DNA of 64,000 nt, from contig NZ_JAQNCY010000001.1 in the NCBI RefSeq assembly GCF_028368855.1, forward strand, positions 558,001-622,000. Reading direction: 5' to 3'. Each line of letters begins with the position of its first letter. Position 1 is the stretch's first letter. The translations under genes were made by a program, and so were the position numbers. Positions 28,335 through 51,852 of the stretch are shown piece after piece. The stretch is from Leisingera sp. SS27. Its GTDB lineage: Bacteria; Pseudomonadota; Alphaproteobacteria; Rhodobacterales; Rhodobacteraceae. The notes under the pieces are model-generated. The model had not been told where the DNA came from. It saw only the letters and a program-made list of their open reading frames with translations, and searched no databases.

Positions 28335-28454
28335 GGGTCAAGGGTGGCACAGCCACCGCGCGCCAGCACGGCTTACCCTTGATGCGGCATCAGCAAACAC
28401 ACTCGAATTGGTTTCTTCAGGGGCAGCCCTGCCCCTGAAGCTCTTCTCAGCAAA
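28335..28454 (+). repeat. 120-bp structured intergenic element, copy A
   Basis: Begins with GGGTCAAGGG, which pairs with CCCTTGAT around an inner hairpin GGTGGC/GCCACC. It continues with ACACACTCGAATTGG and a perfect 11-bp hairpin CTTCAGGGGCA-gccc-TGCCCCTGAAG, and ends TTCTCAGCAAA. The same layout and exact length occur at 41934 and 49579, and in a longer form at 51674. It lies 3' of the DUF1499 gene. Confidence 0.75.
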
Positions 28455-28488
28455 CCCCAAGGCTCTTCCGCCGAAGGCGGATGAGCCT

Positions 28489-28519
28489 GCGCCGCGCTTT
28501 GCGCGGCGCCCGGCCCAAC
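28489..28519 (+). repeat. Hairpin module 3 of the mosaic element (copy A)
   Basis: GCGCCGCGC-ttt-GCGCGGCGC followed by CCGGCCCAAC. Related hairpin-plus-GGCCCAA sequences lie next to the other three element copies, at 42112, 51861 and, inverted, 49513. Confidence 0.5.
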
Positions 28520-28567
28520 TGTAAGAGGCTTTTTGCAAAAAGGCCGAGTACAGGCGGGAGCCGCCGC

Positions 28568-28996
28568 CTACTCTCCGGCAGAAACAGCCGTCGGAGCCAC
28601 TTCCATTTCCGCGAGCCAGGTGTTTATCCGTTCTTTGTTGGCGCCGAGGTCAGACCGGCCGAACCGCAGGCGCGCGTAAACTTTCAGCAGATCGCCGTCC
28701 TGCGCCGCGGTGGTGTAGTCGGGAAAGCCCAGAACCTGGGTGCGGGTGATATAGGTCACCATGCCGTCGTCTGGCCCGCCCGCCAGCACGCTGGTGCGCG
28801 GCGCGTGGCTGGCGATGCGGTGGAACCGCTCCAGCCCGTCCGGCCCGGTCCGGACCACCCGGAACACGCCGCCGCGGAACTCCTTGTCCTCGCTCAGCTC
28901 CGGCTGGGTGTTCCAGTCCAGCGGATCGCTCGGCGCCAGCCGGACAAACCCCAGCCCGGCGATAATCGCGGCCAGCAACAGCCAGCCCAGCAGCAT
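28568..28996 (-). CDS. DUF1499 domain-containing protein
   Basis: 142 residues from the ATG at 28996, which has GAGG six bases upstream. One N-terminal membrane helix (MLLGWLLLAAIIAGLGFV) anchors a DUF1499 domain containing DPLDWNTQPEL and, near the end, VYARLRFGRSDLGANKERINTWL. The function is unknown. The frame remains open upstream into the agmatinase gene, but that portion is a shadow. Confidence 0.78.
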   Translation of the reverse strand: MLLGWLLLAAIIAGLGFVRLAPSDPLDWNTQPELSEDKEFRGGVFRVVRTGPDGLERFHRIASHAPRTSVLAGGPDDGMVTYITRTQVLGFPDYTTAAQDGDLLKVYARLRFGRSDLGANKERINTWLAEMEVAPTAVSAGE

Positions 28997-29081
28997 CAGC
29001 CGCCTCAATGCGGTTTCAAGGTCACCTCTTGCCTCCTCCTCACGCGGCCCTCCCCCGGCCTTCCGCTTGAGGCCGGACCGC

Positions 29082-30029
29082 TTATCTCGTTGCCACGCCC
29101 GGCAGCACGCACAACAGCTCATAGAGCAGGTTGGCGCCCACCAGGGCAGTGTTGCCCGACGGGTCATAAGGCGGCGACACCTCCACAAGGTCGCAGCCCA
29201 CGATGTTGACCCCCTTCAGGGACCGGATCAGTTCCAGCGCCTGCGGCGTCGTCAGCCCGCCGATTTCCGGCGTGCCGGTGCCCGGCGCATAGGCCGGGTC
29301 AAGACTATCGATATCATAGGTCACATAGACCGGCCTATTGCCGATATCGCGGCGAATTTCCGCACCCATCTGGTGCAGCGAGCGGTTCCACAATTCCTGC
29401 GCCGGGAAGTGCTGGAACCCCCAGCCCTGCGCCTCGGAAAAATCGGTGGCGGCATAGCCGGTGCCGCGGATGCCGATCTGGTAGGTCTTGTCCGGGACGA
29501 TCAGCCCTTCCTCATAGGCGCGGCGGAAGACAGTGCCATGGGTCTCGCGCTCGCCGAACATCTCGTCGTTCACATCCGCATGGGCATCCACATGCACCAG
29601 AGCCACGGGGCCGTATTTCTTGGCAATGGCGCGCAGGATCGGCAGGGTGATCGAATGATCGCCGCCCATCGCCACCGGGATCACCCCGCCGGACAGGATC
29701 GCGTCATAGCTGTCTTCAATAATACGGAGTGATTCCGGCAGCGAAAACGTGTTGATCGCCAGATCGCCGATATCGGCAATGTTCAGGCTGTCAAACGGCG
29801 CCGCCCCGGTTGCCATGTTGTAGGGCCGCAGCATCGCGCTCTCGGCGCGGATCTGCTTGGGGCCGAAACGGGTGCCCGACCGCCAAGAGGTGCCAATATC
29901 CATCGGAACACCCAGCACTGCCACATCCAATCCATCCAGCGAAGTCGCCTGCGGCAGCCGCATGAAAGTGTTCGGCCCGGAAAACCGTGCCAGGTCATTG
30001 CCGCTGATAGGTTGATTGAAGTCGGTCAT
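29082..30029 (-). CDS. speB: Agmatinase-family ureohydrolase
   Basis: 315 residues. All Mn-binding motifs of the arginase/agmatinase family are present: MGGDHSITLP, VHVDAHADVNDE, and YDIDSLDPAYAPGTGTPE. The enzyme hydrolyses a guanidino compound to urea and an amine. Agmatine is the default substrate, but guanidinobutyrate or guanidinopropionate hydrolases share these motifs, so substrate is less certain than fold. An M20 amidohydrolase gene is upstream on the same strand, 139 bp away. Confidence 0.82.
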   Translation of the reverse strand: MTDFNQPISGNDLARFSGPNTFMRLPQATSLDGLDVAVLGVPMDIGTSWRSGTRFGPKQIRAESAMLRPYNMATGAAPFDSLNIADIGDLAINTFSLPESLRIIEDSYDAILSGGVIPVAMGGDHSITLPILRAIAKKYGPVALVHVDAHADVNDEMFGERETHGTVFRRAYEEGLIVPDKTYQIGIRGTGYAATDFSEAQGWGFQHFPAQELWNRSLHQMGAEIRRDIGNRPVYVTYDIDSLDPAYAPGTGTPEIGGLTTPQALELIRSLKGVNIVGCDLVEVSPPYDPSGNTALVGANLLYELLCVLPGVATR

Positions 30030-30168
30030 AGTCTCTCACGTTCCAGCAAAGAATACGGCAGAAGCGCGCCGCCTCTTGTCCGGCAATAACACCTGCACCG
30101 CTGGTGTCAAAGACCGCAGACAGCCGCTGCTGCACCGGCCCCGCAGACTGGTGCAGACACGCCGCGTT

Positions 30169-31335
30169 TCAGCTGTTCAGCGGCTGCGCGCGTTCCACCA
30201 GCCGGGCAAAGAACGACGCCCCCACCGGTGCAATTGCGTCATTAAAATCATACTTCGGATGATGCAGCCCTGCGCTATCACCTTGCCCCAGGAACAGATA
30301 GGAACCGGGCCGTGCCTGCAGCATATAGGCAAAATCCTCTGCCCCCATCTCGCGTCCGCCGTCAGCCTCCACATTCGCATCGCCGGAAATCTCCTTGGCA
30401 ACGTCCACCGCAAAGGTGGTCTTTTCGGCGTCGTTGAACGTGGCCGGATAGCCGATCTCATAGTCCAGCTCTGCCTCAACGCCGTAACTCGCCGCCTGCC
30501 CGGCAACGATTTCCTTCATCCGCCGCATCACCATCTTCTGCACATCGGGGTTAAACGTGCGCACGGTGCCGTTGATATAGGCAGTGTCCGGGATCACGTT
30601 GTCGACGGTCCCGGTGTGGATCTGGGTGACCGATACCACCAGATCCTCCAGCGTGTGATGGTTACGGCTGACGATGGTCTGGATCGCTTGCGCCATGCCG
30701 CAGGCCGCCATCACAGGGTCACGGGTTTCATGCGGCATTGCGCCATGGCCGCCCTTGCCCTGGATGTGGATGTGGAAGGTATCAACCGCAGCCATCAGTG
30801 CGCCCGGTGTCGTCAGAAAATGACCCTCCGGCAGGCCGGGCGCATTGTGCAGCGCATAGACCTCGCTGATCCCGAACCGCTCCATGATGCCTTCCTCCAC
30901 CATGATGCGTGCGCCGCCGATCGCCTCCTCGGCGGGCTGGAAGATCAGCGCAACGCGTCCCTTGAAGTTGCGCGTCTCAGCCAGGTATTTTGCCGCCCCC
31001 AGCAGCATCGTTGTATGGCCGTCATGGCCGCAGGCATGCATGTTGCCCGCATGGCCGGAGGCATAGTCCACCCCGGTTTCCTCAGGGATCGGCAGCGCGT
31101 CCATATCGGCGCGCAACCCGATGGTCGGGCCCTCACCCTGCCCGTTGATAATCGCCACCATACCCGTCTGCGCGATGCCCTCATGCAGTTCATCCACGCC
31201 AAACTCCCGCAGCCGCTCCGCCACAAATGCGGCAGTCTTGGGCAGGTCCAGCGCCAGCTCCGGGATCTGGTGCAGATGCCGCCGCCAGGCCTTCATCTCC
31301 TCGGCGTAATCGGCAATACGGTTCACAACGGGCAT
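30169..31335 (-). CDS. M20-family amidohydrolase (hippurate hydrolase/aminoacylase-like)
   Basis: 388 residues. Metal and catalytic motifs are LRADMDALPIPEETG, HACGHDGHTTMLLGAA and FQPAEEAIGGA, with GKGGHGAMPHETRDP in the dimerisation domain. Such enzymes cleave N-acyl amino acids. AGGAG lies nine bases before the ATG at 31335. The 5' end is close to divergent mazG (63 bp), so they share a promoter region. Confidence 0.88.
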   Translation of the reverse strand: MPVVNRIADYAEEMKAWRRHLHQIPELALDLPKTAAFVAERLREFGVDELHEGIAQTGMVAIINGQGEGPTIGLRADMDALPIPEETGVDYASGHAGNMHACGHDGHTTMLLGAAKYLAETRNFKGRVALIFQPAEEAIGGARIMVEEGIMERFGISEVYALHNAPGLPEGHFLTTPGALMAAVDTFHIHIQGKGGHGAMPHETRDPVMAACGMAQAIQTIVSRNHHTLEDLVVSVTQIHTGTVDNVIPDTAYINGTVRTFNPDVQKMVMRRMKEIVAGQAASYGVEAELDYEIGYPATFNDAEKTTFAVDVAKEISGDANVEADGGREMGAEDFAYMLQARPGSYLFLGQGDSAGLHHPKYDFNDAIAPVGASFFARLVERAQPLNS

Positions 31336-31398
31336 CGGGGTGGACTCCTGCTCCAGACTCGGGATGATGCATCTGACACCGGAAAAAGAGCAGCCGCA

Positions 31399-32214
31399 AT
31401 GCAAGAAACAGACCTGATCCACGACCAGTCCGCCGGCATCGAGCGCCTCCTGGAAATCATGGCGCGCCTGCGCAATCCCCAAGCCGGCTGCCCCTGGGAC
31501 ATCGAACAGGATTTCGCCACCATCGCCCCCTACACCATTGAAGAGGCGTATGAAGTTGCCGACGCCATCGAGCGCGAGGCCTGGCAGGAACTGAAGGGCG
31601 AACTGGGCGACCTGCTGTTCCAATCCGTCTTCCATGCACAGATGGCAGAAGAAGCCGGGCATTTCACCTTTCAGGACGTGGTGCGGACCATGTCGGACAA
31701 GATGGTCTCCCGTCATCCGCATGTGTTCGGCGATGAGTCCCGCGAGAAATCCGCCGAACAGCAGACGCAGGATTGGGAGGCAATCAAGGCGGCAGAACGC
31801 GCAGGCAAGGAACAGAAGGGTACGCTGGACGGTGTGGCGGTTGGACTGCCCGCGCTCCTGCGCGCTTACAAACTCCAGAAACGCGCGGCCCGCGTCGGTT
31901 TTGATTGGCCGTCAGCCGACAATGTCATCGCCAAGATCACCGAGGAATGCGCCGAGCTGGTCGAGGCTCGCGACACCCTCACCCACGCGGAAGTCGAAGA
32001 GGAATTCGGCGACCTCCTGTTTGTGATGGCCAACCTGGGCCGCCACCTGGGGGTTGAGCCGGAAGCCGCCCTGCGCGCCGCCAACGCCAAGTTCACCCGC
32101 CGCTTCGAAGGCGTCGAAGCCAAGCTCGCCGCGCGCGGCAAACGCCCCGAAGACAGCGATCTGGCGGAAATGGATGCGCTCTGGGATGAAGTGAAGTCAG
32201 ACGAGCGCGCCTGA
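31399..32214 (+). CDS. mazG: Nucleoside triphosphate pyrophosphohydrolase MazG
   Basis: 271 residues with two tandem MazG domains. The first includes PQAGCPWDIEQDFATI and EEAYEVADAIE with an EXXE metal site; the second includes ITEECAELVEA and EEEFGDLLFVMANLGRHL. It hydrolyses non-canonical NTPs to monophosphates. The ATG at 31399 gives the family length; the frame upstream is antisense to the M20 gene. Confidence 0.94.
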   Translation: MQETDLIHDQSAGIERLLEIMARLRNPQAGCPWDIEQDFATIAPYTIEEAYEVADAIEREAWQELKGELGDLLFQSVFHAQMAEEAGHFTFQDVVRTMSDKMVSRHPHVFGDESREKSAEQQTQDWEAIKAAERAGKEQKGTLDGVAVGLPALLRAYKLQKRAARVGFDWPSADNVIAKITEECAELVEARDTLTHAEVEEEFGDLLFVMANLGRHLGVEPEAALRAANAKFTRRFEGVEAKLAARGKRPEDSDLAEMDALWDEVKSDERA

Positions 32215-32230
32215 ACGCGCCCTGTCCCTT

Positions 32231-32256
32231 CTTCTTTGCCTGAATACTCAAATCCC
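32231..32256 (-). repeat. Short dispersed 3'-end repeat (mazG copy)
   Basis: Read on the minus strand it contains TGAGTATTCAGGCAAAGAAG, 16 bp after the mazG stop. Related to copies at 22621, 43943 and 54548. Confidence 0.45.
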
Positions 32257-32274
32257 GGCGGCGCAGCCGCCGGG
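32254..32274. terminator. GC-rich hairpin between convergent mazG and the RGS-like gene
   Basis: A perfect 9-bp stem, CCCGGCGGC-gca-GCCGCCGGG, without a T run. It is probably a transcription end or RNA-stabilising hairpin. Confidence 0.5.
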
Positions 32275-32291
32275 CCTCAGGCGCGGCTGGA

Positions 32292-32846
32292 TCAGACCAG
32301 GTTGGCCTTCTTCAACGAAGACGAAATTGCCTTGTAGTCTTCCAGGATCTTTTCCTTCTTCGCCAGCTCTTTCCACAGCTTTTCGGCGGTCTTCTTGTCG
32401 TCGACGGCGACATTCACCATCACTTCCTTCAGCTTCTTCACATCGGTGATGCCCAAGAGCTTGGCCGCCTTCTTGGGGTCCCCCATCGCGTTTTCGGCCA
32501 CGTATTTCTTGTATTCATCGCCGCCGGTGAATCCCATCACATCCTTGTTCAGCATCTTCACGACCTCTTCCTTGCCGGTCGCGATGATTTTCTTCCAGTC
32601 GCCGCTCTTGAAATCGCCCTTATCGGCCAGCGCTTTGGCAGCCAGATGAGTCTTGGAGGTGATGTTGACCGGCTCCTTGCCTTTCTTCTGGTCCATGTAA
32701 CGGGTCCAGAGCGATTCCGGGTTGCCTTTGTTCTGGGTGAACATGAACTCATTCAGGCAGTACCGCCGCTTGCAATAATCCATATAAGCGGCGGTCATTT
32801 TCTTGTCTTTCAGGATATCGCCAACAACTTTGGGCTCTTTGGGCAT
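32292..32846 (-). CDS. RGS-like domain protein (putative), Lys-rich
   Basis: 184 residues, soluble, with no signal peptide and unusually rich in Lys (about one in six). I see a three-block resemblance to the regulator-of-G-protein-signalling fold: residues 8-36 (KDKKMTAAYMDYCKRRYCLN then EFMF, compare the AAFxxFLxxEYSEENIxFW pattern), 45-62 (SLWTRYM with PVNI), and 84-116 (EEVVKMLNKDVMGF then DEYKKYV, compare IFxLMEKDSYxRFLxSxxY). The order and spacing fit a whole RGS domain of about 110 residues. In eukaryotes RGS domains speed GTP hydrolysis by G-alpha; a partner in this bacterium is unknown. The remaining 65 residues are helical and charged. Whether the fold holds is inference from pattern only. 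Confidence 0.5.
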   Translation of the reverse strand: MPKEPKVVGDILKDKKMTAAYMDYCKRRYCLNEFMFTQNKGNPESLWTRYMDQKKGKEPVNITSKTHLAAKALADKGDFKSGDWKKIIATGKEEVVKMLNKDVMGFTGGDEYKKYVAENAMGDPKKAAKLLGITDVKKLKEVMVNVAVDDKKTAEKLWKELAKKEKILEDYKAISSSLKKANLV

Positions 32847-33112
32847 GTCTCACTTTCCCCATGCAAATCAATGTGTTTCCGGCTGAACAAAGCCGTACCA
32901 ATAAGGCCCGGAATCGGGCTGAGCAATCACTGGCGGCGTCTGCGGGCCATCCCGCCCGTGACGCTGCGTCAGGCAACTATAGAAAGCAAACGCGGGGGCG
33001 GCAAACTTCCGTCGCAGAAAATCTCCGGAAATTTGCAAAGGTTCGCGCCCTGCCGGTTCAATCCCGGTTCGGCAGCGCGTAGTCTCACAGCTCACGACCA
33101 GCGGAGACCGCC

Positions 33113-34054
33113 ATGAGCGCCAGAAAAATCATCATCGATACCGATCCCGGCCAGGACGATGCCGTCGCCATCCTGCTGGCGCTGGCCAGTCCGGAAGACC
33201 TCGACCTGCTTGGCGTCACTTGCGTGGCGGGCAATGTCCCTCTGGAGCTGACCAGCAAGAACGCCCGCATCGTCTGCGAGGCTGCAGGCAGGACGGATGT
33301 GCCGGTATATGCAGGCAGCGCGGCGCCGCTTGCCCGTCCGCTGATCACCGCCGAACATGTGCATGGCCAGACCGGCCTGGACGGACCGGACCTGTGGGAG
33401 CCCGCAATGCCTCTGGCTGACGGGCATGGCGTCGATTTCATCATCGACACACTGCGCAGCCATGAACCCGGCACTGTCTCTCTCTGCACGCTTGGTCCGC
33501 TCACCAATATCGCTGCCGCCTTGAGCACAGCCCCGGACATCATCCCCCGGGTTCAGGAAATCGTAATGATGGGCGGTGCCTACTTCGAGGTTGGCAACAT
33601 CACCCCGGCAGCGGAATTCAACATCTATGTCGATCCGGAGGCCGCGGAAAGTGTGTTCAAATCCGGCGTGCCGGTCACAGTGATGCCGCTCGATGTGACG
33701 CATAAAGTGCTGGCCACCAAGCCGCGCGTCGAAGCAATCCGCGCCCTCGATACCCGCGTCGGGCATTTCACCGCCGAAATGCTCGACTTTTTCGAGCGCT
33801 TTGATGTGGAGAAATACGGCTCAGAAGGCGGTCCGCTGCACGACCCCTGCGTCATTGCCTGGCTGCTCAAGCCGGAGCTGTTTTCCGGCCGCCATGTGAA
33901 TGTCGAGATCGAAACCGCTTCTGAGCTCACCCTTGGCATGACTGTCGCCGACTGGTGGGGCGTCACCAACCGCAAACCCAATGCCCTGTTCATAGGCGAT
34001 GCCGACGCGGACGGCTTCTTCACCCTTCTGACCGAAAGGCTCGCCCGCCTATGA
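33113..34054 (+). CDS. Nucleoside hydrolase (IUNH family)
   Basis: 313 residues. The Ca-binding DTDPGQDDAVAILLAL at the start is diagnostic; LCTLGPLTNIAAAL, VMMGGAYFEVGNITPAAEFN and HDPCVIAWLL complete the active site. It splits ribonucleosides into base and ribose. The His in LHDPC is the probable base-protonating residue. It is coupled to a GNAT gene through an ATGA overlap. Substrate preference (pyrimidine or purine) is not clear. Confidence 0.92.
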   Translation: MSARKIIIDTDPGQDDAVAILLALASPEDLDLLGVTCVAGNVPLELTSKNARIVCEAAGRTDVPVYAGSAAPLARPLITAEHVHGQTGLDGPDLWEPAMPLADGHGVDFIIDTLRSHEPGTVSLCTLGPLTNIAAALSTAPDIIPRVQEIVMMGGAYFEVGNITPAAEFNIYVDPEAAESVFKSGVPVTVMPLDVTHKVLATKPRVEAIRALDTRVGHFTAEMLDFFERFDVEKYGSEGGPLHDPCVIAWLLKPELFSGRHVNVEIETASELTLGMTVADWWGVTNRKPNALFIGDADADGFFTLLTERLARL

Positions 34055-34500
34055 GCGCCGCCCTGCATCTCGCCAAGCTCGAACATATGGAAACCGTTCT
34101 GGCGCTGGTGGCCGCTTTTCATGCCGAATCCGGCCTGGACAGCAGCGACGAGCACCGCCGCGCAGGCATTGAGCCTTTGCTGAACGGCCACCCTTACGGT
34201 GCCGTCTACCTGATCGGCCCCACCCGTGCGCCGATCGGCTATATTGTCATCACCTTCGGCTGGTCGGTGGAATTCGGCGGCATGGACGGTTTTGTCGATG
34301 AACTCTACATCCGCCCCGCCGTGCGCGGCCGCGGCATTGCTACCGAAGTGCTGACCGAACTGCCGAAAACTCTTGCAACCGCTGGCATGCGGGCCCTTCA
34401 TCTGGAGGTCGACCGCGAAAACGAAACCGCACAGCGGCTTTATCTACGCACCCGCTTCCAGCCGCGCAAAAACTACATTCTGATGACCAAACAGCTCTGA
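34051..34500 (+). CDS. GNAT family N-acetyltransferase
   Basis: 149 residues. The acetyl-CoA binding motif A is in VDELYIRPAVRGRGIATEVL, and motif B in ALHLEVDRENETAQRLYLRT. Substrate unknown. The start is within the stop codon of the nucleoside hydrolase, so the two are coupled. Confidence 0.86.
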   Translation: MSAALHLAKLEHMETVLALVAAFHAESGLDSSDEHRRAGIEPLLNGHPYGAVYLIGPTRAPIGYIVITFGWSVEFGGMDGFVDELYIRPAVRGRGIATEVLTELPKTLATAGMRALHLEVDRENETAQRLYLRTRFQPRKNYILMTKQL

Positions 34501-34772
34501 CACGGCTGCGCCACAGGCAGTTTGATGAACAAAATACGGCCCGGAAGCCACCCGGCTTCCAGGCCTGAGATCGAACTGAAATGCGGCACTTCACGGCGGG
34601 CTCTTCCACCCCTCCCCGGCAAAAGCCCGCCGCTGTGCGCCCCCCTCCGGCAGAATTGCGCTGCTGTGATGACTGCGCGCATTTATAAGGAACCATCCTG
34701 CCGGGACCGGCGTTACAGTCCCGTCTGCGGCCCGCAATACAGCCGCACCGGACCTGAAAATGGAGATATCAA

Positions 34773-35048
34773 ATGACTTTCCGCTGGATCCCTGCTCTCG
34801 CAAGTTCCGCCGTACTGGGCCTTGGCGCCTGTACCAACCTGACCCCGGAACAGCGCACCGTTGCCGGTGTGGCAGGCGGCGCCGCAGCTGGCCTGATCGC
34901 CGCTGACGCGCTCAAGGCTGACGACGACTGGCGGCTTATCGCGGCGCTTGGCGGCGCTGCCGCCGGAACCCTGGTCGCCCAGAACAACCAGTCAAATCAG
35001 TGCGCCTATTCCCGCGGTGACGGCACCTATTACACCGCAGCCTGCTAA
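34773..35048 (+). CDS. Glycine-zipper lipoprotein
   Basis: 91 residues. A signal peptide with lipobox LGLGAC (Cys about 20) is followed by two glycine-rich hydrophobic stretches, VAGGAAAGLIAADAL and AALGGAAAGTLVAQ, in the manner of glycine-zipper (SlyB/17 kDa-like) lipoproteins, and a Cys-containing C-terminus. Likely outer-membrane associated. Confidence 0.75.
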   Translation: MTFRWIPALASSAVLGLGACTNLTPEQRTVAGVAGGAAAGLIAADALKADDDWRLIAALGGAAAGTLVAQNNQSNQCAYSRGDGTYYTAAC

Positions 35049-35056
35049 TGATTTTT

Positions 35057-35092
35057 GATCTGGCGCCCTCCCCCCGGACAGGGCGCCAGATC
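35057..35092. terminator. Intrinsic terminator after the glycine-zipper lipoprotein gene
   Basis: A perfect 13-bp stem GATCTGGCGCCCT / AGGGCGCCAGATC with a 10-nt loop and a short T tail. It can also serve the convergent small lipoprotein gene. Confidence 0.85.
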
Positions 35093-35129
35093 TTTGGCTG
35101 CAGCCCGTGTTCAGGCCGCAGCCCTGGTA

Positions 35130-35282
35130 TCAGCGTATTTCCCCGCCAAGGTTCAGCCGCTGGACCGGATCATCCGGTGACGCGGCCTGACCGCTGAACG
35201 GGTACATCCCCGGACCGCTGCACCCTAAAAGGGTTGAAAGAACTGCACAGATTGCCACTGTGCGCAACATCCGCATCTGCAT
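35130..35282 (-). CDS. Very small lipoprotein
   Basis: 50 residues from the ATG at 35282. The signal peptide MLRTVAICAVLSTLLGC ends in a canonical lipobox, leaving about 29 mature residues (SGPGMYPFSGQAASPDD then a short tail). An AGGGGA site lies upstream. No known family. It converges on the glycine-zipper lipoprotein gene. Confidence 0.55.
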   Translation of the reverse strand: MQMRMLRTVAICAVLSTLLGCSGPGMYPFSGQAASPDDPVQRLNLGGEIR

Positions 35283-35395
35283 GGCCTGTTCCCCTTTCCC
35301 GCAGCACCTTTGCACCGCGTAGGAACACGCTACCATGACGTCATTGTGAGCGTCTGTGATCCGGGCCACACATGCCGTTTCCGGCAGGTATACTG

Positions 35396-35848: not shown

Positions 35849-35973
35849 TTCAGCCTCTCAAGAATTCTCCCAGCAGCCTTATCTCTACTTCTCCAGATCC
35901 GCCACTTATCCAACCAGCATGCTCCCCTTCCAGAGCTGGAAGAGTTAGTGGCTAAAGCAGAGCTAATGCACTC

Positions 35974-36582: not shown

Positions 36583-36610
36583 ATCGGCACATCTGAATGA
36601 ATCCTGGGAG

Positions 36611-41915: not shown

Positions 41916-41933
41916 GCGCTCTCCGCCAGCGCC

Positions 41934-42053
41934 GGGTCAAGGGTCCCGCAGGGACCGCGCGTCACGCGCGGCGTGCCCTTGACGCGGCGCTGGCGGATCA
42001 CACACTTGAATTGGCGCCTAAGGGCAAACCTGCCCTTAGGCGCCTCTCAGCAA
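41934..42053 (+). repeat. 120-bp structured intergenic element, copy B
   Basis: Outer stem GTCAAGGG/CCCTTGAC encloses two hairpins (GGTCCC/GGGACC and CGCGCG-type). Then come ACACTTGAATTGG and a perfect 14-bp hairpin GGCGCCTAAGGGCA-aacc-TGCCCTTAGGCGCC, and the end TCTCAGCAA. It lies 18 bp after the helicase stop. Confidence 0.75.
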
Positions 42054-42066
42054 TGAGTATCGATCA

Positions 42067-42112
42067 GGAAACTGTCCGGGGGACAGTTTCAGTTGCGAAC
42101 GGGCGAAGCCCC
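42067..42112 (+). repeat. Hairpin module 2 of the mosaic element (copy B)
   Basis: GAAACTGTCC-ggg-GGACAGTTTC followed by TTGCGAACGGGCGAAGCCC. The same module, with compensating stem changes, is inside copy D at 51698. Confidence 0.6.
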
Positions 42113-42145
42113 GCTGCGCTGCGCAGCAGCGCCACGCCCAAGCCT
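42112..42145 (+). repeat. Hairpin module 3 of the mosaic element (copy B)
   Basis: A GC-rich hairpin (CGCTGCGC and its complement) followed by ACGCCCAAGCC. The weakest of the four module 3 copies. Confidence 0.35.
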
Positions 42146-43891: not shown

Positions 43892-43901
43892 TGCGGCAAT
43901 A

Positions 43902-43938
43902 AGGGGGCTGCCTGCCCCCTCTTGAGCCTTCGGCTCAA
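43902..43938. terminator. Double hairpin between convergent EamA transporter and selO
   Basis: AGGGGGC-N5-GCCCCCT followed at once by TTGAGCC-ttc-GGCTCAA, which can end transcription from both sides. Confidence 0.75.
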
Positions 43939-43942
43939 TTCA

Positions 43943-43974
43943 CCCCTGGGGATATTTCAGGCCAGATGAACAAG
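43943..43974 (+). repeat. Short dispersed 3'-end repeat (selO copy)
   Basis: Contains GGGGATATTTCAGGCCAGAT, directly after the selO stop codon. Related copies are at 22621, 32231 and 54548. Confidence 0.5.
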
Positions 43975-43977
43975 GGA

Positions 43978-45396
43978 TCAGGTGCCGCAGAAGGTCGCCG
44001 GCACCACTTCCTCCGGCAGCGGCGGGCGCTGCAAGTCAGTATGTTCCGGCTGATCCTCATAAGGGTTGGACAGCACAGCGTTCAACTGGTGGAACAGCGC
44101 ATAGTCGCCTGCCACCGCACCGGCAATCATCTCCTCGATCCGGTGGTTGCGCGGAATGAAAGCAGGGTTCGCCGCACGCATGACCGCCTGCGGGTCCGGT
44201 TCCCCTTCCAGCCGCGCCTGCCAGTCCGGCTTCCAGGCATCAAAGGCCGCCGGATCAGTGAACTGGTCCCGCGCCTTGCCTTCACCCAGGGCACGGAAGG
44301 TATTGGTGAAATCGCTCTGGTTCTCTGCCATCCGCCCCAGCAGGGCAGTAACCAGCTCCAAATCACTCTCCTGTTCTGAAGTGATCCCCAGTTTTGCGCG
44401 GAACCGCCGCAGCCAGGCCGCCTCGGTCAGCGCGGGCATCGCATGCACGATTTCCGTTGCCGCCTCGACACCTTCCTGCGGGTCCTTCATCTGCTGGATC
44501 AGCGCAGTCGCCAGCTGTGCCAGGTTCCAGACCGCAATCGTAGGCTGGTTGGCATAGGCATAGCGCCGCCCCCGGTCGATCGAGGAAAACACGGTGTGCG
44601 GGTGATAGACATCCATGAAGGCGCAAGGCCCGTAATCAATGGTTTCGCCGGAGATCGCGGAATTGTCGGTATTCATCACACCGTGAATGAACCCCACGGA
44701 CATCCAGGCGGCTATCAGCTCCGCCTGCGCATCGCGCACGGCCCGCAGCAGGCCCATCGGGCCTTCCGCCTCTGGGCAGTGACGGGCAATGGCATAGTCC
44801 GTCAGCTGCTGCAGGCTGGCCTTGTCACCGCGCGCGGCAAACACCTGGAAGGTGCCCACCCGCAGATGGCTCGCCGCCACCCGCGTCAGCACCGCGCCAG
44901 GCAAGCCCCCTTCGCGCCATACGGTCTCACCCGTCTCTACCGCCGCCAGCGCGCGGGTGGTCGGGATGCCCAGGCTGTGCATCGCCTCGCTCACCACATA
45001 TTCGCGCAGTACTGGCCCCAGCCAGGCCCGCCCGTCGCCATTGCGCGAATACGGCGTCCGGCCAGAGCCCTTCAGCTGAATATCACGGCGCCTGCCGTCC
45101 GTTCCCACCACTTCGCCCAGCAGGATCGCGCGCCCGTCGCCCAGCTGCGGATTATAGGTGCCGAACTGATGCCCGGAATAAAGCTGCGCCAGCGGATCAG
45201 CCCCCTCAGGCACCTGATTGCCGCCGAACACCGCCGCCATCTCCCCGGCCTCGCCGGGTGTGATCCCCATGATCCGCGCCAGATCCTCGTTAAAGGCCGC
45301 CAGCCGCGGCGCCTTTACCGCCTGCGGCGGCAGTTTGGAGTAGAACTGCCCCGGCAGGGCAGCATAGGTGTTGTCAAAGGGGATCGTGAATGTCAT
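43978..45396 (-). CDS. selO: Protein adenylyltransferase SelO
   Basis: 472 residues of the SelO/YdiU (UPF0061) pseudokinase family. [14 protein letters not shown] opens the protein; [59 protein letters not shown] (in part) and NWRNHRI-like RNHRIEEMI near the end are conserved. SelO transfers AMP to Ser, Thr or Tyr of target proteins and is linked to redox stress. The C-terminus ends FCGT, holding the conserved late Cys that is selenocysteine in eukaryotes. Confidence 0.9.
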
Positions 45397-45453
45397 GGCC
45401 CAAACATATGACTGGAATAGAGATTTACCAGCACCAAAGCGGAGGCAGCATCA

Positions 45454-45873
45454 ATGGACGCAGACCGGATCATCGAACACCTGGGACTGCAGCAGCATCC
45501 GGAGGGCGGCTGGTACAAGGAAACCTGGCGTGCGGAAAATGAAGGCCGCCCCACAGGCACCTGTATTTACTTCCTTTTAAAGGCAGGCGAGGCCAGCCAC
45601 TGGCACCGGGTCGATGCCGCCGAGATCTGGCTCTACCACGCCGGCGCACCGCTGGTGCTGTCGCTGGCGGCGACCGATGAGGGCCCGGCTCAGGACCACC
45701 TGCTCACCCCGGAATTGACCCGGGGCGCGCCGCAGCTGATTGTGCCCAAGGGCCACTGGCAGGCCGCCCGCAGCACCGGAGACTACACGCTGGTCAGTTG
45801 CACGGTGTCGCCGGGGTTCGAGTTTGAGGGGTTTGAACTGGCTGCTCCAGGCTTCGACATCCCGCACGGCTGA
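45454..45873 (+). CDS. Cupin, DUF985 family
   Basis: 139 residues. HPEGGWYKETWRA and ASHWHRVDAAEIWLYHAG contain the conserved His/Glu of the cupin metal site; KGHWQAARSTGDYTLVSCTV and PGFEFEGFELA follow. The catalytic role of DUF985 proteins is unknown. Divergent from selO. Confidence 0.85.
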   Translation: MDADRIIEHLGLQQHPEGGWYKETWRAENEGRPTGTCIYFLLKAGEASHWHRVDAAEIWLYHAGAPLVLSLAATDEGPAQDHLLTPELTRGAPQLIVPKGHWQAARSTGDYTLVSCTVSPGFEFEGFELAAPGFDIPHG

Positions 45874-45916
45874 CCCGCCCTTGCAGCGAATCATCGGACT
45901 GGACGAGACTGTCCGT

Positions 45917-46819
45917 ATGTCTGCCGAACCGGAACATACGCGCCTTATCAAATCGCTGCCGCCGGACACCAAGGCAGCCTTGACCGCCCGTTCCAACGCC
46001 GCTGGCCTGCGGCATCTGGCACTTTATCTGGCTGTTCTCGGCGCCTGCACCGCAGGCATTGCGCTGCAAGTGCCGCTCTGGCCGCTACTGATGCTGCCGC
46101 AAGGCATACTGCTGGTCTTTCTCTTCACCCTCAGCCACGAATGCACCCACCAAACCCCTTTCCGCAGCAAGTGGCTGAACGAGGCTGCGGGCCATTTCTG
46201 CGCCCTTGCCATCGCGCTGCCCTTCACATGGTTCCGCTATTTCCACCTGGCGCATCACAAATACACCAATGACCCCGAACGCGACCCGGAGCTGGAACAT
46301 GGCGGACGGCCTGAAACCTTCAGCCAATGGTTCCTGTATCTGAGCGGCTGGGGCTACTGGCGCGGCATGGCAGAGACCATCTGGCGCAACGCCTTCGGCA
46401 CCATCGATTCTCCATACCTGCCGGAACGCCGCCACGCGGACATGCGGATGGAGGCCCGGCTGCTGCTGGCACTTTACGCCGCCGCGCTGCCGACCTTGCT
46501 GATGTCGCCCCTGGTTCTGTGGCTCTGGATCGTGCCGCTTCTGATCGGCCAGCCGTTCCTGCGGGCCTACTTACTGGCGGAGCACGGCCTCTGTCCCCCG
46601 GTCGCGAATATGCTGGAAAACTCCCGCACCACCTTCACCAGCCGGCTGGTACGATTTCTGGCCTGGAACATGCCTTATCACGCCGAGCATCACGCCTTTC
46701 CGAACGTGCCTTTCCACCGGCTTCCCGCATTCCACACCATGACCCAAGCACATCTCAAGTCGACGTCAGACGGGTACGGGGAGTTCACGGCGGACTACCT
46801 CCGCCAGCTCTCCCGCTGA
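45917..46819 (+). CDS. Fatty acid desaturase family protein
   Basis: 300 residues with four or more membrane helices and the three His boxes of membrane di-iron desaturases: HECTH, HLAHH and HAEHH (about residue 256). Substrate unknown; fatty-acyl lipids, carotenoids and other hydroxylase/desaturase substrates are all possible. It starts 43 bp after the cupin gene and may be co-transcribed. Confidence 0.85.
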   Translation: MSAEPEHTRLIKSLPPDTKAALTARSNAAGLRHLALYLAVLGACTAGIALQVPLWPLLMLPQGILLVFLFTLSHECTHQTPFRSKWLNEAAGHFCALAIALPFTWFRYFHLAHHKYTNDPERDPELEHGGRPETFSQWFLYLSGWGYWRGMAETIWRNAFGTIDSPYLPERRHADMRMEARLLLALYAAALPTLLMSPLVLWLWIVPLLIGQPFLRAYLLAEHGLCPPVANMLENSRTTFTSRLVRFLAWNMPYHAEHHAFPNVPFHRLPAFHTMTQAHLKSTSDGYGEFTADYLRQLSR

Positions 46820-46838
46820 TCCGCCGCCAGAGGCCGCA

Positions 46839-46883
46839 CAAATTTCTTCGAAGAAATTTGCCAAGAAACTTCGAAGTTTCTTG
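46839..46883. terminator. Two adjacent 22-bp perfect palindromes (bidirectional terminator?)
   Basis: 46839-46860 and 46862-46883 are each perfect 22-bp palindromes centred on TTCGAA, one base apart, between the convergent desaturase and anmK genes. Each can form a hairpin on either strand. Confidence 0.6.
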
Positions 46884-46900
46884 TCCGCCCGGTCACAACC

Positions 46901-48010
46901 TCACACCCCCGGCACACTCACCACGCCGCCGCCCACGCAAGCGCGCACCCCAGTGGTCCCAGGCGCTGATGTCGGCATCCCGCGCGCCACCCGCACCGCC
47001 AGATGGGCAAAGGCCTGCGCCTCCAGCATGTCGCCGTCCAGCCCTGCGTCCTCCACCGGCTTTACCGGACAATCGAGCGACACACGCAGCATCTCCATCA
47101 GCACCGGGTTGTGCCGCCCGCCGCCGGTGACCAGCACCATCTCCGGCGGCTCGGGGCAATGCTCCATGCCCTGCGCCACGGCGGCGGCGCACATGGCTAT
47201 CAGGGTGGCCGCAGCATCCGCGTCGCTCAGCTCATTGACCAGTTCAACCATCTCAGCAAAATCGTTCCTGTCCAGCGACTTGGGCGGCATTCTTGAAAAA
47301 TAGGGTTCGGCCAGGAACAGCTCCAGCGCACCGGTTTCAACGGTGCCGGACCGCGCCACCTTGCCGTCCGCGTCCCAGGGAATGCCCAAACGCTCCTGCA
47401 CCAGATCATTGACAGGCGCATTGGCCGGGCCGGTGTCAAAGGCCAACAGCGCTCCTGGCTCCTCCGGCCTGTCAAACCGCGGATCCACATAAGTCAGGTT
47501 GCCAACCCCGCCCAGGTTCAGGAAACACAAGGGTTTCTCAGCGCCGATGTATTTGGCGCAGGCAAAGTGAAAGAACGGCGCCAGCGGCGCGCCCTCGCCG
47601 CCCATCGCTACATCGTCCGTGCGGAAATCCCAGACCACCGGCTTGCCCAGCTTTTCGGCCAATGCAGCACCGTCGCCGACCTGCAGCGTGCCCTGCAGCC
47701 GCGGCGCATGGGCCAGCGTCTGGCCGTGAAAGCCGATGATTTCCACTTCGCCGAACTCCGCCAGCGCCGCCGCATGGGCCGCATCGCAGACCGCTGCCGC
47801 GGCCTCAACCTCCGGCCCCGCCCACTTGCCAAGGCCCGCCCGCAGCACCCGGCGCTCCTCCGCCGAATACTCGCGGTAGCTGCTCTCGCCGAACCCGTGA
47901 ATGCGCGCGCCGTCGGTCACCACCACCGCCGCATCCACCCCGTCCAGCGAGGTGCCGCTCATCGCACCCAGCGCCCTGACCGCACCCGTTTTTGCAATGG
48001 CCCTGCTCAT
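46901..48010 (-). CDS. anmK: Anhydro-N-acetylmuramic acid kinase
   Basis: 369 residues. [18 protein letters not shown] is the ATP/substrate loop; [40 protein letters not shown] and [14 protein letters not shown] complete the AnmK pattern. It hydrolyses and phosphorylates anhMurNAc to MurNAc-6-P during peptidoglycan recycling. The ATG at 48010 gives the usual length. Divergent from tyrS (143 bp). Confidence 0.92.
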
Positions 48011-48153
48011 GGCCTGCCCCCATCCTTCAGGATCCGGGCCGTACCGCCCGTTGCAGGGGATACTACAGCGCATATTTTGCCGGGAAAACAGGTTCCAACC
48101 GGCGTCAATGCGATTTATAGGGCATGGTGCAAAACCATAGACCGAGGCATGTT

Positions 48154-49410
48154 ATGACCTACACACCGAAATCGGATTTCGTCGCAGTCATGATGGAACG
48201 CGGGTTCCTCGCGGACTGCACCGATTATCAGGGCCTGGACGACGCCCTGCTGCAAGGTGTGCGCCCGGCCTATATCGGCTTTGACGCCACAGCGAAATCG
48301 CTGCACGTCGGCTCGCTTATCCAGATCATGATGCTGCGCTGGTTCCAGAAGACCGGCCACCAGCCGATCACCCTGATGGGCGGCGGCACCACCAAGGTGG
48401 GCGACCCCTCTTTCCGCGCAGATGAGCGCCCGCTGCTGACCGAATCCCAGATCGACGACAATATCGCGGGCATCAAGAAGGTGTTCTCGGCCTATATCGA
48501 CTACGACAGCGACGCGCCGAACAAGGCGCTGATGCTGAACAACGCCGAATGGCTGGACGGGCTGAACTACCTGGAATTCCTGCGCGACATCGGCCGCCAT
48601 TTCTCGGTGAACCGGATGCTGTCGTTCGAGAGCGTCAAGTCCCGCCTCGACCGCGAGCAGTCCCTGTCATTCCTCGAATTCAACTACATGATCCTGCAGG
48701 CCTATGACTTCATGGAGCTGAACCGCCGCTACGGCTGCATCCTGCAGATGGGCGGCTCGGACCAATGGGGCAATATCGTCAACGGCATCGACCTGACGCG
48801 CCGCACCATCGAGCATGAGGTCTATGGCCTCACCTCGCCGCTCTTGACCACCTCGGACGGCAAGAAGATGGGCAAGTCGCAGGACGGTGCGGTCTGGCTC
48901 AACGCCGAAATGCGTTCCCCATATGAGTTCTGGCAGTTCTGGCGCAATACCACCGATGCTGACGTCGGCCGCTTCCTCAAGCTCTACACCGAACTGCCGG
49001 TGGAGGAATGCGAGCGCATCGGCGCCCTGCAAGGCTCTGAGATCAACGAGGGCAAGGTGATCCTCGCCAATGAGGTGACCAAGCTTCTCCATGGTGCCGA
49101 GTCCGCGGCGGCTGCCGAGGCCACCGCCCGCGAGGTATTCGAGAAAGGCGGCGTGGGCGATGACCTGCCCACCCTGTCGCTGACGCCTGCCGATCTCGGC
49201 GACGGCATTTCGATCGTTCAGCTGATCGTGAAATCCGGCCTCGCCAAATCCGGCAAGGACGCCAAGCGGCTGATCAGTGAAAACGGCGCCCGGATCGACG
49301 ACCAGCCGCTGACCGATGCCGGCCTGATGATCGACGCAGGCGCACTGTCCTCGCCGATCAAGCTGAGCGCCGGCAAAAAGCGCCACGCGCTGGTGCGGCT
49401 GGACGGCTGA
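48154..49410 (+). CDS. tyrS: Tyrosyl-tRNA synthetase
   Basis: 418 residues, class I synthetase. The HIGH-type motif is HVGS at 51-54 in AKSLHVGSL, the KMSKS-type motif is KKMGKS, and [17 protein letters not shown] binds tyrosine. A C-terminal S4 domain follows ([20 protein letters not shown]). GAGG lies six bases before the chosen ATG; an ATG 30 bases upstream is less likely. Confidence 0.96.
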
Positions 49411-49429
49411 ACCTTCTGACATAAAACCG

Positions 49430-49459
49430 AAAAAGGGAGCCGCCGCGCTCCCTTTTTTG
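49430..49459 (+). terminator. Intrinsic terminator of tyrS
   Basis: AAAGGGAGC-cgccgc-GCTCCCTTT with a run of six T after the stem, 20 bp after the stop. Confidence 0.92.
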
Positions 49460-49512
49460 TTGCCCGCAGATGCTCCCGCCCGTTCCAGCCCCTTCAAAGA
49501 CGGGTCCTCACG

Positions 49513-49539
49513 GTTGGGCCGGGCGCCGCTGCGCGGCGC
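49513..49539 (-). repeat. Hairpin module 3 of the mosaic element (inverted, near copy C)
   Basis: On the minus strand GCGCCGC-gca-GCGGCGC is followed by CCGGCCCAAC, sharing a 17-base identity with the module near copy A. It is inverted relative to the core element. Confidence 0.5.
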
Positions 49540-49578
49540 GCCAGCACATCCCCGTAACGCCCCACTCAGGCCAGCCCC

Positions 49579-49698
49579 GGGTCAAGGGCCGCCCAAGCGG
49601 CCGTGCGCAGCACGGGTCCCCCTTGAGGCGGGGATGGCCGGGATACACTGAAACAGGCGCCTTAAGGGCAAACCTGCCCTTAGGCGCCTCTCAGCAAA
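49579..49698 (+). repeat. 120-bp structured intergenic element, copy C
   Basis: Outer stem TCAAGGG/CCCTTGA encloses GGCCGC/GCGGCC and CGTGC/GCACG hairpins. It ends with GGCGCCTTAAGGGCA-aacc-TGCCCTTAGGCGCC (one bulged T) and TCTCAGCAAA. Same length and plan as copies A and B. Confidence 0.75.
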
Positions 49699-49708
49699 TC
49701 ATCCTGCC

Positions 49709-49846
49709 TCAGAAAAACAGCGCCTCCACCAGGGTCAGCACCAGAAAAACCGGCACCGACAGGCCGATGGCGATCAGCAGCGCTGCCGCCTTGGTCATCC
49801 GCGGGGCAGCAGCCGTCCGCCCCATGATCCGTTTTGCTTTTCTCAT
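49709..49846 (-). CDS. Small single-helix membrane protein (putative)
   Basis: 45 residues: a basic start (MRKAKRIMGRTAAAPR) and one membrane helix (KAAALLIAIGLSVPVFLVLT then LVEALFF). The composition is that of a real small membrane protein, but the ribosome-binding site is weak. Divergent from the acetyltransferase gene. Confidence 0.4.
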   Translation of the reverse strand: MRKAKRIMGRTAAAPRMTKAAALLIAIGLSVPVFLVLTLVEALFF

Positions 49847-49892
49847 ACTCAAAATTAACCATGATTTAGGTTTCCAGCGCGTTAATGGCCCC

Positions 49893-50810
49893 ATGTTCGA
49901 CAGCGCCTCCGATCCCGAATTGCCAGCAGCCGCAACCGCCCGCCCCCAGCCCCGTGCCCTCCAGCAAGCGCCGGAATTTGCCCGCGCGTTGATGGCCTGC
50001 GGCCAGGAGCCGCTGACGCTGGAGGGTACTTTGGTGCTGCGCCGCCGCTTCCCCGGCGGACTGCGGCTGGCAATGGTAAACCGGGCAGATCTGACTGATC
50101 CCACGCCCCTGCTGGCAGCCCTGCGCGCAGGCGGCTTTGCCCGGACGCCGCTGATCCTGTCGCCCGAGTCCCCGGCCCCGCACCTTGCACGCCTCGGCGC
50201 CGTGCCGCTGGCCACACCCGCCCATGCCGCGCTCTGGGATCTGACAGGCGAGCCGGACCAGCGCCGCGCAGCCCTGCACCAGAAATGGCGCAACCGGCTT
50301 AAACACGGTGAGGCGCAAAACCTCCGCCTCGCCCGCCAGAACCTGCCCCATGACGTGCGCCACTGGCTGTTTCGGGCCGACGCGGCACAGCAAACCCGGC
50401 GCGGATACCGCAGCTGGCCCATCGGCCTCACTCTCGCCTATGCACGCGAAAACAAGGGGCAGGCAAAATTGTTCCAGGCGTTTGAAGGCAAGGAGCCGAT
50501 TGCAGCCATCCTGATCCTCACCCACGGCAGCACCGCCACCTACCACATCGCCCACACCACCGCCCGCGGCAAGCAGCTCAGCGCCCACCCGCTTTTGCTG
50601 TGGGAGGCCGCGAACTGGCTCGCTGCCAAGGGCATCTGCCGCCTCGACCTCGGTCTCATCAATTCCGAGGACGCCGCGGGCCTTGCCCGCTTCAAGCTCG
50701 GCACCGGCGCAAGGCTCCATCGGCTGGGCGGCACCTGGGGCCTCTGGCCGCCGCTGGGCCGCCTGCTGCAACCGCTGTCGTTGCTCGACCGCCGCCTGAT
50801 GGGCGCGTAA
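49893..50810 (+). CDS. GNAT/FemAB-like acyltransferase
   Basis: 305 residues. The C-terminal half has the BioF2/FemAB-like acetyltransferase pattern: QKWRNRLKHGEAQNL, GKEPIAAILILTHGSTATYH and RGKQLSAHPLLLWEAANWLA, then RLDLGLINSEDAAGLARFKLG. Relatives transfer acyl or aminoacyl groups onto cell-surface compounds. The substrate is unknown. Confidence 0.75.
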   Translation: MFDSASDPELPAAATARPQPRALQQAPEFARALMACGQEPLTLEGTLVLRRRFPGGLRLAMVNRADLTDPTPLLAALRAGGFARTPLILSPESPAPHLARLGAVPLATPAHAALWDLTGEPDQRRAALHQKWRNRLKHGEAQNLRLARQNLPHDVRHWLFRADAAQQTRRGYRSWPIGLTLAYARENKGQAKLFQAFEGKEPIAAILILTHGSTATYHIAHTTARGKQLSAHPLLLWEAANWLAAKGICRLDLGLINSEDAAGLARFKLGTGARLHRLGGTWGLWPPLGRLLQPLSLLDRRLMGA

Positions 50811-50861
50811 CCCCCCGCGACGCCCCGTCCCGCTGGACAGATGCCCGGCCCCTCCATTATA

Positions 50862-50875
50862 TGAACACACGTTCA
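50862..50875. promoter_or_regulatory. Palindromic operator-like site upstream of the SDR gene
   Basis: TGAAC-ACAC-GTTCA, a palindrome 23 bp before the start codon. It is in the position of a TetR-type operator. No regulator gene is adjacent. Confidence 0.4.
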
Positions 50876-50898
50876 GATAACCGGGAGGAGCCCCGCTC

Positions 50899-51654
50899 AT
50901 GAAACTTGCAGACACCGCAGCCGTTGTAACCGGCGGCGCCTCCGGCCTGGGTGAGGCCACCGCGCGCTACTTCGCCGAACAAGGCGCCCAGGTCACCATC
51001 CTCGACCGCGACGCCGAGCGCGGCACCCAGGTGGCCGAGGAAATCGGCGGGTACTTCGCCCAGACAGATGTCACCAGCGAAGAGTCGGTCTCTGCCGCCA
51101 TCGCCCATGCGGTGGAAATGATGGGCAAGATCACCGCCTGCGTGAATTGTGCCGGCATTGCCACCGGCGCCAAGACCGTGGGCAAGGACGGTGCGCATCC
51201 GCTGGATGCCTACAAGCGCACAATCGACATCAACCTTGTCGGCACCTTCAACGTCGCCCGCCTCGCCGCTGTCGAGATTGCCAAGAACACCCCCGACGCG
51301 GACAACGCCCGCGGCGTGATCATCAACACCGCCTCCATTGCGGCCTTTGACGGCCAAAAAGGCCAGGCTGCCTATGCCGCCTCCAAAGGCGGGGTTGCCG
51401 GCATGTGCCTGCCAATGGCGCGGGATCTCGCGTCCTTGGGCATCCGGGTGATGACCATCGCACCCGGCATCTTCATGACCCCGATGCTGGCCGGCCTGCC
51501 GGAAGAGGTGCAGCAGCAGCTGGCCGCCGACGTTCCCAACCCCGCCCGCCTGGGCGACCCGCGCGAATTCGGCCGTCTCGCCGGTTTCATCACCGAAATG
51601 GGCTACCTCAACGGCGAGGTCATCCGCATCGACGGCGCCCTGCGCATGCGCTGA
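50899..51654 (+). CDS. SDR oxidoreductase, 3-hydroxyacyl-CoA dehydrogenase type II-like
   Basis: 251 residues. The NAD site is [24 protein letters not shown] and the catalytic Ser, Tyr and Lys in NTASIAAF and AYAASKGGV are present. The pattern ([12 protein letters not shown], and a C-terminal [12 protein letters not shown]) is that of HSD10-type dehydrogenases used in branched-chain or fatty-acid oxidation. GGGAGG precedes the ATG. Confidence 0.88.
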
Positions 51655-51673
51655 TGCCCCTTCCGTTGCGGGC

Positions 51674-51852
51674 GGGTCAAGGGGTGAGCAAGCTCCCTGG
51701 AAACGCTCCGGGGGAGCGTTTCGCTTGCGAACGGGCGGAGCCCAAAGCGGCGGCGCTTGACCCGTTCACCCTTGAGAGGCGGCCTCAACAAGAAACACAC
51801 TCGTGATGGCGTCTTGAGGGGCACTCCTGCCCCTCAAGCGCTTCTCAGCAAA
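51674..51852 (+). repeat. Structured intergenic element, copy D (179 bp, with inserted module)
   Basis: The same borders as the 120-bp copies: GGGTCAAGGG at the start, CCCTTGA then AACACACTCGTGATGG, the hairpin CTTGAGGGGCA-ctcc-TGCCCCTCAAG and the end TTCTCAGCAAA. It is 59 bp longer because module 2 lies inside the outer stem. The gap between the SDR and O-acetyltransferase genes (340 bp) holds little else. Confidence 0.7.
51698..51743 (+). repeat. Hairpin module 2 of the mosaic element (inside copy D)
   Basis: GAAACGCTCC-ggg-GGAGCGTTTC followed by TTGCGAACGGGCGGAGCCC. The stem differs from copy B by paired changes that keep all ten base pairs. Confidence 0.6.

Follow-up and report, generated by a model that had tools for sequence, protein, structure and literature searches.

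Folded intergenic repeats of Leisingera and related roseobacters keep their orientation to replication and may have spread as single-stranded DNA

Repetitive extragenic palindromic (REP) sequences are 20-50 nt long and are preceded by a tetranucleotide, mostly GTAG, according to the available part of the source (PMC8266576), and the known single-strand elements use the lagging-strand template, again in the accessible part of the report (PMC6006769). Here we examined a stretch of 64,000 nt from Leisingera sp. SS27 (contig NZ_JAQNCY010000001.1, forward-strand positions 558,001 to 622,000; hereafter the window), which carries four copies, A to D, of a structured intergenic element. This element represents a repeat family of ~120-135 bp in marine roseobacters that is apparently undescribed, as far as the open PMC papers searched are concerned. 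Its copies share a fold, are conserved between orthologous loci, have a strand polarity and occur in near-identical form at many sites of one genome, mainly in convergent and tandem gaps. The explanation that we prefer, with a probability of about one half, is that they are non-autonomous REP/IS200-like intergenic repeats of single-stranded DNA (ssDNA), which spread on the lagging-strand template and are kept by selection on the folded DNA.

In all four copies a common start, GGGTCAAGGG (beginning at window positions 28335, 41934, 49579 and 51674 in A, B, C and D), is followed by the inner hairpins, the motif CCCTTGA, a linker, P3 (a hairpin whose loop has 4 nt) and the tag CTCAGCAA, and all four lie on the + strand, as a sequence-only reading of the window had described. 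Its statement that three copies measure exactly 120 bp holds for B, whereas A and C measure 119 bp when counted through the end of CTCAGCAA and 120 bp if the A behind it is included; the greater length of copy D comes from another repeat lodged within its inner hairpins. That reading had overlooked P0, an outer stem with its 5' arm ahead of GGGTCAAGGG. The overall fold is a branched stem (P0/P1) enclosing two hairpins (HP1 and HP2), then the linker, P3 and the tag, and folding z-scores were -2.7 for A, -5.0 for B and -4.4 for C. Copy B (41923..42053, +), the top match of the genome at 137.9 bits, shows each part. The 5' arm of P0, CCGCCAGCGCC (41923..41933), pairs with 41986-41996, and P0 pairs covary in the family; the 5' arm of P1, TCAAGGG (41937..41943), pairs with CCCTTGA at 41976-41982, the TCAA/TTGA pairs being near-invariant. 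HP1 (TCCC-GCA-GGGA, 41944..41954) was assigned by the fold and a loop survey, and HP2 (CCGCGCG-TCA-CGCGCGG, 41955..41971) and P3 (GGCGCCTAAGGGCA-AACC-TGCCCTTAGGCGCC, 42013..42044) by fold and covariation. The linker (41997..42012) has the family consensus nACACTnGA ahead of P3, and the tag (42046..42053) contains the profile anchor TCAGC, with the preceding TC conserved at 89-90% and the following AAA at 68-81% (126 of 164 distinct copies).

As the sequence-only reading had noticed, the stems differ by paired changes, and its claim that structure rather than sequence is under selection has strong support, both from covariation in alignments and from changes between orthologs. In an alignment of 85 copies, standard pairs filled 91.6% of the paired cells (71.6% in shuffles), two-sided changes were found in 35 of 39 pairs (24.4 in shuffles), and the covariation score reached 0.457, compared with 0.120 in shuffles and at most 0.092 in slid pairings. 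None of 500 shuffles attained any of the pairing measures; the alignments were fitted to the model, so that some lean is expected, and the slid pairings were nevertheless far lower, at only 32-47% paired. A 76-row alignment gave the same picture of covariation. The sequence was most conserved in the foot of P1 and the internal loop between P0 and P1 (GGTCAA ... TTGA), in the linker nACACTnGA (A 94%, T 91%, G 89%) and in the tag; the conservation profile covers 129 and 126 of the 164 distinct copies, and its anchors, GGTCAAG and TCAGC, consist of letters fixed by choice. Conservation dropped sharply past the AAA of the tag, and on the 5' side only a weak bias was seen, over P0. The HP1 loop had the form C(GNA)G in 47 of 128 copies; loops of this type are very stable in DNA.

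Orthologous copies were collected by matching flanks, 101 of them in 25 groups. When orthologs were compared, two-sided changes of a pair amounted to 71 per-group units against 16 expected under independence, and single-sided changes to 103 against 213. One orthologous copy lies between betB (betaine-aldehyde dehydrogenase) and betA (choline dehydrogenase; both names assigned by NCBIfam), antisense to the operon, in 11 loci whose hosts include Roseibaca, Roseivivax, Pelagimonas and Leisingera (L204:10043-10176, L062:6021-6155, L113:2263-2403 and eight further loci). The distance from its 5' end to the betA start is 16-22 nt in nine loci and 65 and 79 nt in the other two, the P0 arms vary among the loci yet still pair (by eye), and two further loci with bet flanks, L159 and L165, each hold a copy. 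This copy may also influence betA expression. At two other sites scored in the genus, the element was found in 14 of 21 loci at ≥66 bits and in 14 of 20 at ≥47 bits, and was weak, partial or lacking in the remaining loci.

The extent of the family was followed with a pattern and with covariance models. A pattern of the P3 foot plus the tag matched 12 times in the window's genome (11 forward, 1 reverse) and not at all in a reversed control; nine of these matches carry the plan and recur with the covariance model, which did not recover the other three. The first model, built from seven copies, gave 21 matches in this genome at E up to 1, including 16 strong copies (E < 1e-6), and 12-22 matches in each of the 13 Leisingera-genus genomes examined (13/13), while eight genomes of other families had no matches with the covariance model. 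Under the strict filters of a family-wide search, 23 of 149 sampled genomes matched the seven-copy model and 25 of 149 a second model made from 85 diverse copies, 17 of these 25 with one or two matches only. In a class-wide sample of 190 genomes, three matched: the window's own, one at 68 bits and one partially at 42 bits. The P3-plus-tag pattern occurred in at least 110 stretches, and 106 of these 110 scored ≥40 bits with a full or a partial model of the element and spanned ≤221 bp; L162 and L106 matched the model weakly, and L088 and L101 did not match. A longer, gene-carrying version was discarded, as none of the 110 could hold a transposase gene. Genera among the matches listed were Leisingera, Phaeobacter, Pseudophaeobacter, Roseobacter, Shimia, Sulfitobacter and Roseivivax, and ten plasmid records, all from Leisingera, carry a single copy each. 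In the sequence-only reading no named family had been recognized, and no Rfam RNA family matched: only three tRNAs reached the cut-off in the window, and a permissive search of the stretch around B returned at best 13.6 bits (PhotoRC-I) against a cut-off of 45. With 16 strong copies at home and many more in relatives, the idea of one structured family came through the model search unrefuted; four unrelated terminators with a chance likeness are ruled out by these copies, the relatives, the covariation and the lack of terminator sites on the element in the stretches around B and C. Two side observations concern database records. Loci L136, L094, L092 and L128, from records JAHVJD01 labeled Nocardioides marinus DP1N28-1, carry Leisingera-type copies, and the record name looks wrong. 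A 64.6-kb IMG/VR contig has the P3-plus-tag pattern (L353:1969-1995), and the full model finds no element there.

The orientation of the element nearly always follows replication and not genes. On its + strand the window has a GC skew of -0.07 and a single FtsK orienting polar sequence (KOPS) motif, compared with 19 on the opposite strand, so its elements lie in the lagging sense. Across 74 copies in 20-kb stretches from Leisingera and three other genera, KOPS counts placed 65 in the lagging and 6 in the leading sense with 3 undecided (65/71 decided), and GC skew placed 60 in the lagging and 14 in the leading sense. Two of the six KOPS exceptions are matches below 43 bits, and one is plasmid-borne with 8 versus 7 motifs. 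In a genome of another genus, G035, all 16 decided copies were lagging by KOPS (20 examined, 4 ties), as were 18 of 20 by skew, and the burst in this genome is a separate instance of the polarity. On six chromosomes, with the origin set at dnaA and the terminus taken as its antipode, 53 of 58 copies lay in the lagging sense. Gene strand does not explain this, because the same loci have 550 genes on the element's strand and 498 on the opposite one. A second repeat, a GC-rich hairpin stem followed by GCCCAA, occurs 106 times in 864 kb of element-centered loci, in many loci of Leisingera and in the window at about 28489-28519, 42108-42143 and 51859-51889; of 52 Leisingera elements, 35 are followed by a same-sense copy of it at a distance of up to 200 nt, and away from elements it showed 28 leading and 26 lagging copies.

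Such polarity could also arise if the element were a replication-polar DNA site that serves the host in restart, loading or arrest and is selected for its orientation instead of being inserted in it. The polarity is seen on both chromosome arms, structure and position are retained between species, and every genus genome examined has the element, all of which agrees with a host site; we nevertheless consider it unlikely, given the patchy occurrence (25/149 family genomes, mostly with one or two matches), the near-identical burst in G035, the four copies inside 24 kb of the window and the single copies on the ten plasmid records. A fork trap confined to the ter half, hinted at by an apparent origin-free zone in G002, G003 and G010, failed, with copies ~126 kb (G007) and ~310 kb (G010) from dnaA.

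Gene context bears on whether the fold acts as RNA. The counts, from a crude codon-based gene caller, are approximate, since some predicted genes overlap copies, partly through wrong frames: context was obtained for 71 of the 74 copies. Convergent gaps hold 38 of them and divergent gaps 5; in tandem gaps, both genes run in the same sense as the element in 21 cases and antisense to it in 7. Downstream of a same-strand gene lie 59 of the 71, many beginning 13-30 nt past the stop codon. The sequence-only reading had placed all four window copies at gene ends, which is true of three. Copy B directly follows a DEAD-box helicase gene and precedes a convergent Exo_endo_phos gene. Copy C (49568..49698, +, 123.5 bits) lies 168 nt past a class I (W/Y) tRNA-synthetase gene (48124-49410, +), from which a terminator-like stretch separates it (by eye), and copy D (51663..51852, +, 66.4 bits), the one with the nested repeat, stands behind a short-chain dehydrogenase gene (50899-51654, +). 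Copy A (28324..28454, +, 113.1 bits; P0/P1 branched stem, linker, P3 and tag) is antisense to both neighbors: the nearest genes called on either side, at distances of 1092 and 113 nt, are minus-strand genes, the closer one a DUF1499 gene (28568-29188, -). A third repeat (GGAAACNNTCCGGGGGANNGTTTC followed by TTGCGAACGGGCGnAGCCC) was observed inside copy D at 51699-51743 and just downstream of copy B at 42067-42111.

The frequent position behind stop codons, the strong covariation and the excess of same-sense over antisense tandem gaps (21 versus 7, with orthologs counted repeatedly) would suit a cis-acting RNA of 3' untranslated regions, folding after the upstream gene's stop codon and working in mRNA stability or Rho-linked termination. 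Of the 59 downstream copies, however, 38 are in convergent gaps, where either orientation would score equally, and an RNA leaves the replication polarity unexplained. Nor does P3 resemble an intrinsic terminator: it is followed by TCTCAGCAA or a similar sequence with no T run, and a terminator scan of the stretches around B and C gave no site at all for B and, for C, none that falls on the element. Copy C and copies in G035 even lie beyond terminator-like stretches (by eye). An RNA fold should tolerate G-U but not A-C mismatches, which makes the ratio of the two informative. One-sided G-U and A-C changes between orthologs were 34.3 and 28.8, and the alignments, with a few weak rows included, had ratios of 126:86 and 139:79; the excess of G-U is thus only 1.2- to 1.8-fold, less than a structured RNA would show. 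This weak excess, the bet copy lying antisense in 11 loci, copy A with its antisense neighbors and the polarity with respect to replication make DNA, and not RNA, the more likely form of the conserved fold, and we regard a 3' RNA as quite improbable. The 3'-end RNA element implied by the sequence-only reading is likewise not supported, in view of the orientation, the antisense bet copies, the copies past terminator-like stretches and the small G-U excess.

The clearest sign of mobility comes from G035, which has 19 near-identical copies of 121-122 bp at different sites, indicating recent spread as judged from their sequences. Upstream, the flanks of L287 and L292 have little in common with the rest ahead of CGATTCGG of P0, and downstream L292, L293 and L297 diverge immediately past the tag's TCA (by eye in both cases). 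Among the copies in L279-L297, differences were seen mainly in the linker before P3 and just upstream of P0 (by eye). A terminator-like module beginning GCCTCCGGCGGG stands ahead of 14 of 20 G035 copies; this 12-mer occurs 24 times in the loci, 10 times without a following copy, and 6 of these 10 are leading and 1 lagging where KOPS decides. Across L279-L304 the module was observed to recur at gene ends, both where the element is present and where it is absent, and at more than one locus an IS200-type element sits next to the module and the repeat.

Three loci of G035 contain IS200-type pieces, and in two of them, L302 and L303, a copy stands beside the IS200 end in the same arrangement; that end lies upstream of 3 of 20 scored copies. 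This adjacency would fit a REP- or IS200/IS605-derived miniature element mobilized by a Y1 (RAYT/TnpA) transposase that has since been lost in most hosts. The use of the lagging template by IS200/IS605 elements, in the available part of the source (PMC6006769), would agree with it, as would the conserved GCTGAG that stands 5' of the hairpin in the exposed sense, similar to the 5' guide of REPs in what is accessible of the description (PMC8266576). Yet the guide is not of the GTAG type, the element is 120 bp long with a branched domain instead of 20-50 nt, and the end hairpins of the G035 IS200 differ from those of the element. Since this IS200 has its own end hairpins and interrupts, in L302, the module that precedes most copies (by eye), its adjacency may be mere target preference. 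We therefore hold the derivation from a lost Y1 system to be unlikely, although the G035 transposase could conceivably have played a part in the spread within that genome.

Our preferred reading would work as follows. Fork passage would expose, on the lagging template, the reverse complement of the element, that is, 5' GCTGAG, the P3 hairpin, the linker and the branched hairpin (P0/P1, HP1, HP2). An enzyme recognizing folded ssDNA may have moved or copied the exposed strand into other single-stranded stretches at gene ends, and insertion through single strands would leave one orientation per replication arm. Resident copies would then persist by virtue of some service of the folded DNA to the host. 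The parts of this account that we infer are the passage through single strands, the enzyme and the role of resident copies.

Several results weigh against this reading, and the first of them also against a lost Y1 system. Y1_Tnp is missing from 15 of 21 genus genomes, including that of the window (present in 6), and from three of six element-bearing genomes of other genera (G024, G070 and G038); no responsible enzyme was found in a search that covered Y1_Tnp, other enzyme families not being searched. Among the sites compared for empty targets there were only deletions, remnants and diverged flanks, and no clean site with a target signature, so that element-free sites look as much like decay as like non-insertion. 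The covariation within orthologs implies, as far as sequence can tell, a function in place, which is not expected of a plain relic. The p value of ~3e-11 for the six chromosomes overstates independence, as copies share descent. The polarity of KOPS belongs to general background and was checked here against dnaA positions, and the GCCCAA repeat within 250 nt of elements is polarized too (34 lagging, 12 leading). Finally, G-U does exceed A-C, which leaves room for RNA, and the tRNA control (G-U:A-C of 25:0 among 392 pairs in 18 tRNAs from the loci) is weakened because the tRNA finder demands pairing.

The element might instead be a chromosomal single-strand control site at which RNA polymerase or a primase/restart protein could start, which we judge highly improbable. 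The fold would present TTGA paired within P1, nACACTnGA next to it as a single strand and the P3 duplex ~6-7 nt on, resembling an opened promoter or a priming site that is exposed when one template turns single-stranded; if true, this would explain why both structure and replication orientation are retained. The spacing between TTGA and nACACT-like hexamers was mostly 15-16 nt (55 of 97 copies with such a hexamer), and 46 of 143 copies have no hexamer. An internal sigma-70 promoter survives only as part of such a control site, since a consensus scan found none around B and C.

Whichever explanation is correct, the family combines strong compensatory change at fixed sites across species, an orientation to replication that is nearly absolute and what looks like a recent amplification in one genome, and most of its tested hosts are without a Y1 transposase. 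Dispersed bacterial repeats are usually taken for RNA signals or mobile debris. With this family it can be tested, on a natural example, whether chromosomes select for DNA hairpins at forks, and it gives a handle on an unknown ssDNA-processing enzyme or replication-coupled function in roseobacters.

Several known systems invite comparison. Like REP/BIME/REPIN sequences with TnpAREP (RAYT), it is a short, many-copy intergenic palindrome with a conserved motif 5' of a hairpin and mosaic neighbors; it differs in its three-part fold of 120-135 bp, in GCTGAG (reverse sense) beside P3 in place of a GTAG-type guide, in the lack of a Y1 (tnpAREP) gene in most tested hosts, in having one orientation per replication arm, and in its 12-22 copies with paired changes in place between species. 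With non-autonomous IS200/IS605 elements of the IS608 and ISDra2 type it shares ssDNA hairpins and lagging-template polarity, but TnpA-type ends or a fixed target did not emerge from the sites compared, and no autonomous partner was found, apart from the IS200 that adjoins some copies in G035 and whose ends differ from those of the element. Single-stranded DNA promoters (Frpo) are folded DNA with promoter-like parts and require a particular strand. The element would likewise be folded DNA with promoter-like parts and has a strand bias, and differs in being chromosomal and dispersed and in that the consensus promoter scan found no promoter in the stretches around B and C; such promoters are named in the available part of PMC11541004. 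The enterobacterial RU repeats (103-168 bp), as far as they are covered in the part of their description available, are alike in size, intergenic dispersal and miniature inverted-repeat transposable element-like character; they belong to another host group and are likened by size and dispersal only, not by structure or polarity. Unlike a Tus/Ter-like fork trap, the copies are not confined to the terminus-proximal part of the chromosome. By analogy, then, the element looks like the single-strand elements in polarity and layout, yet departs from REPs in the defining features compared.

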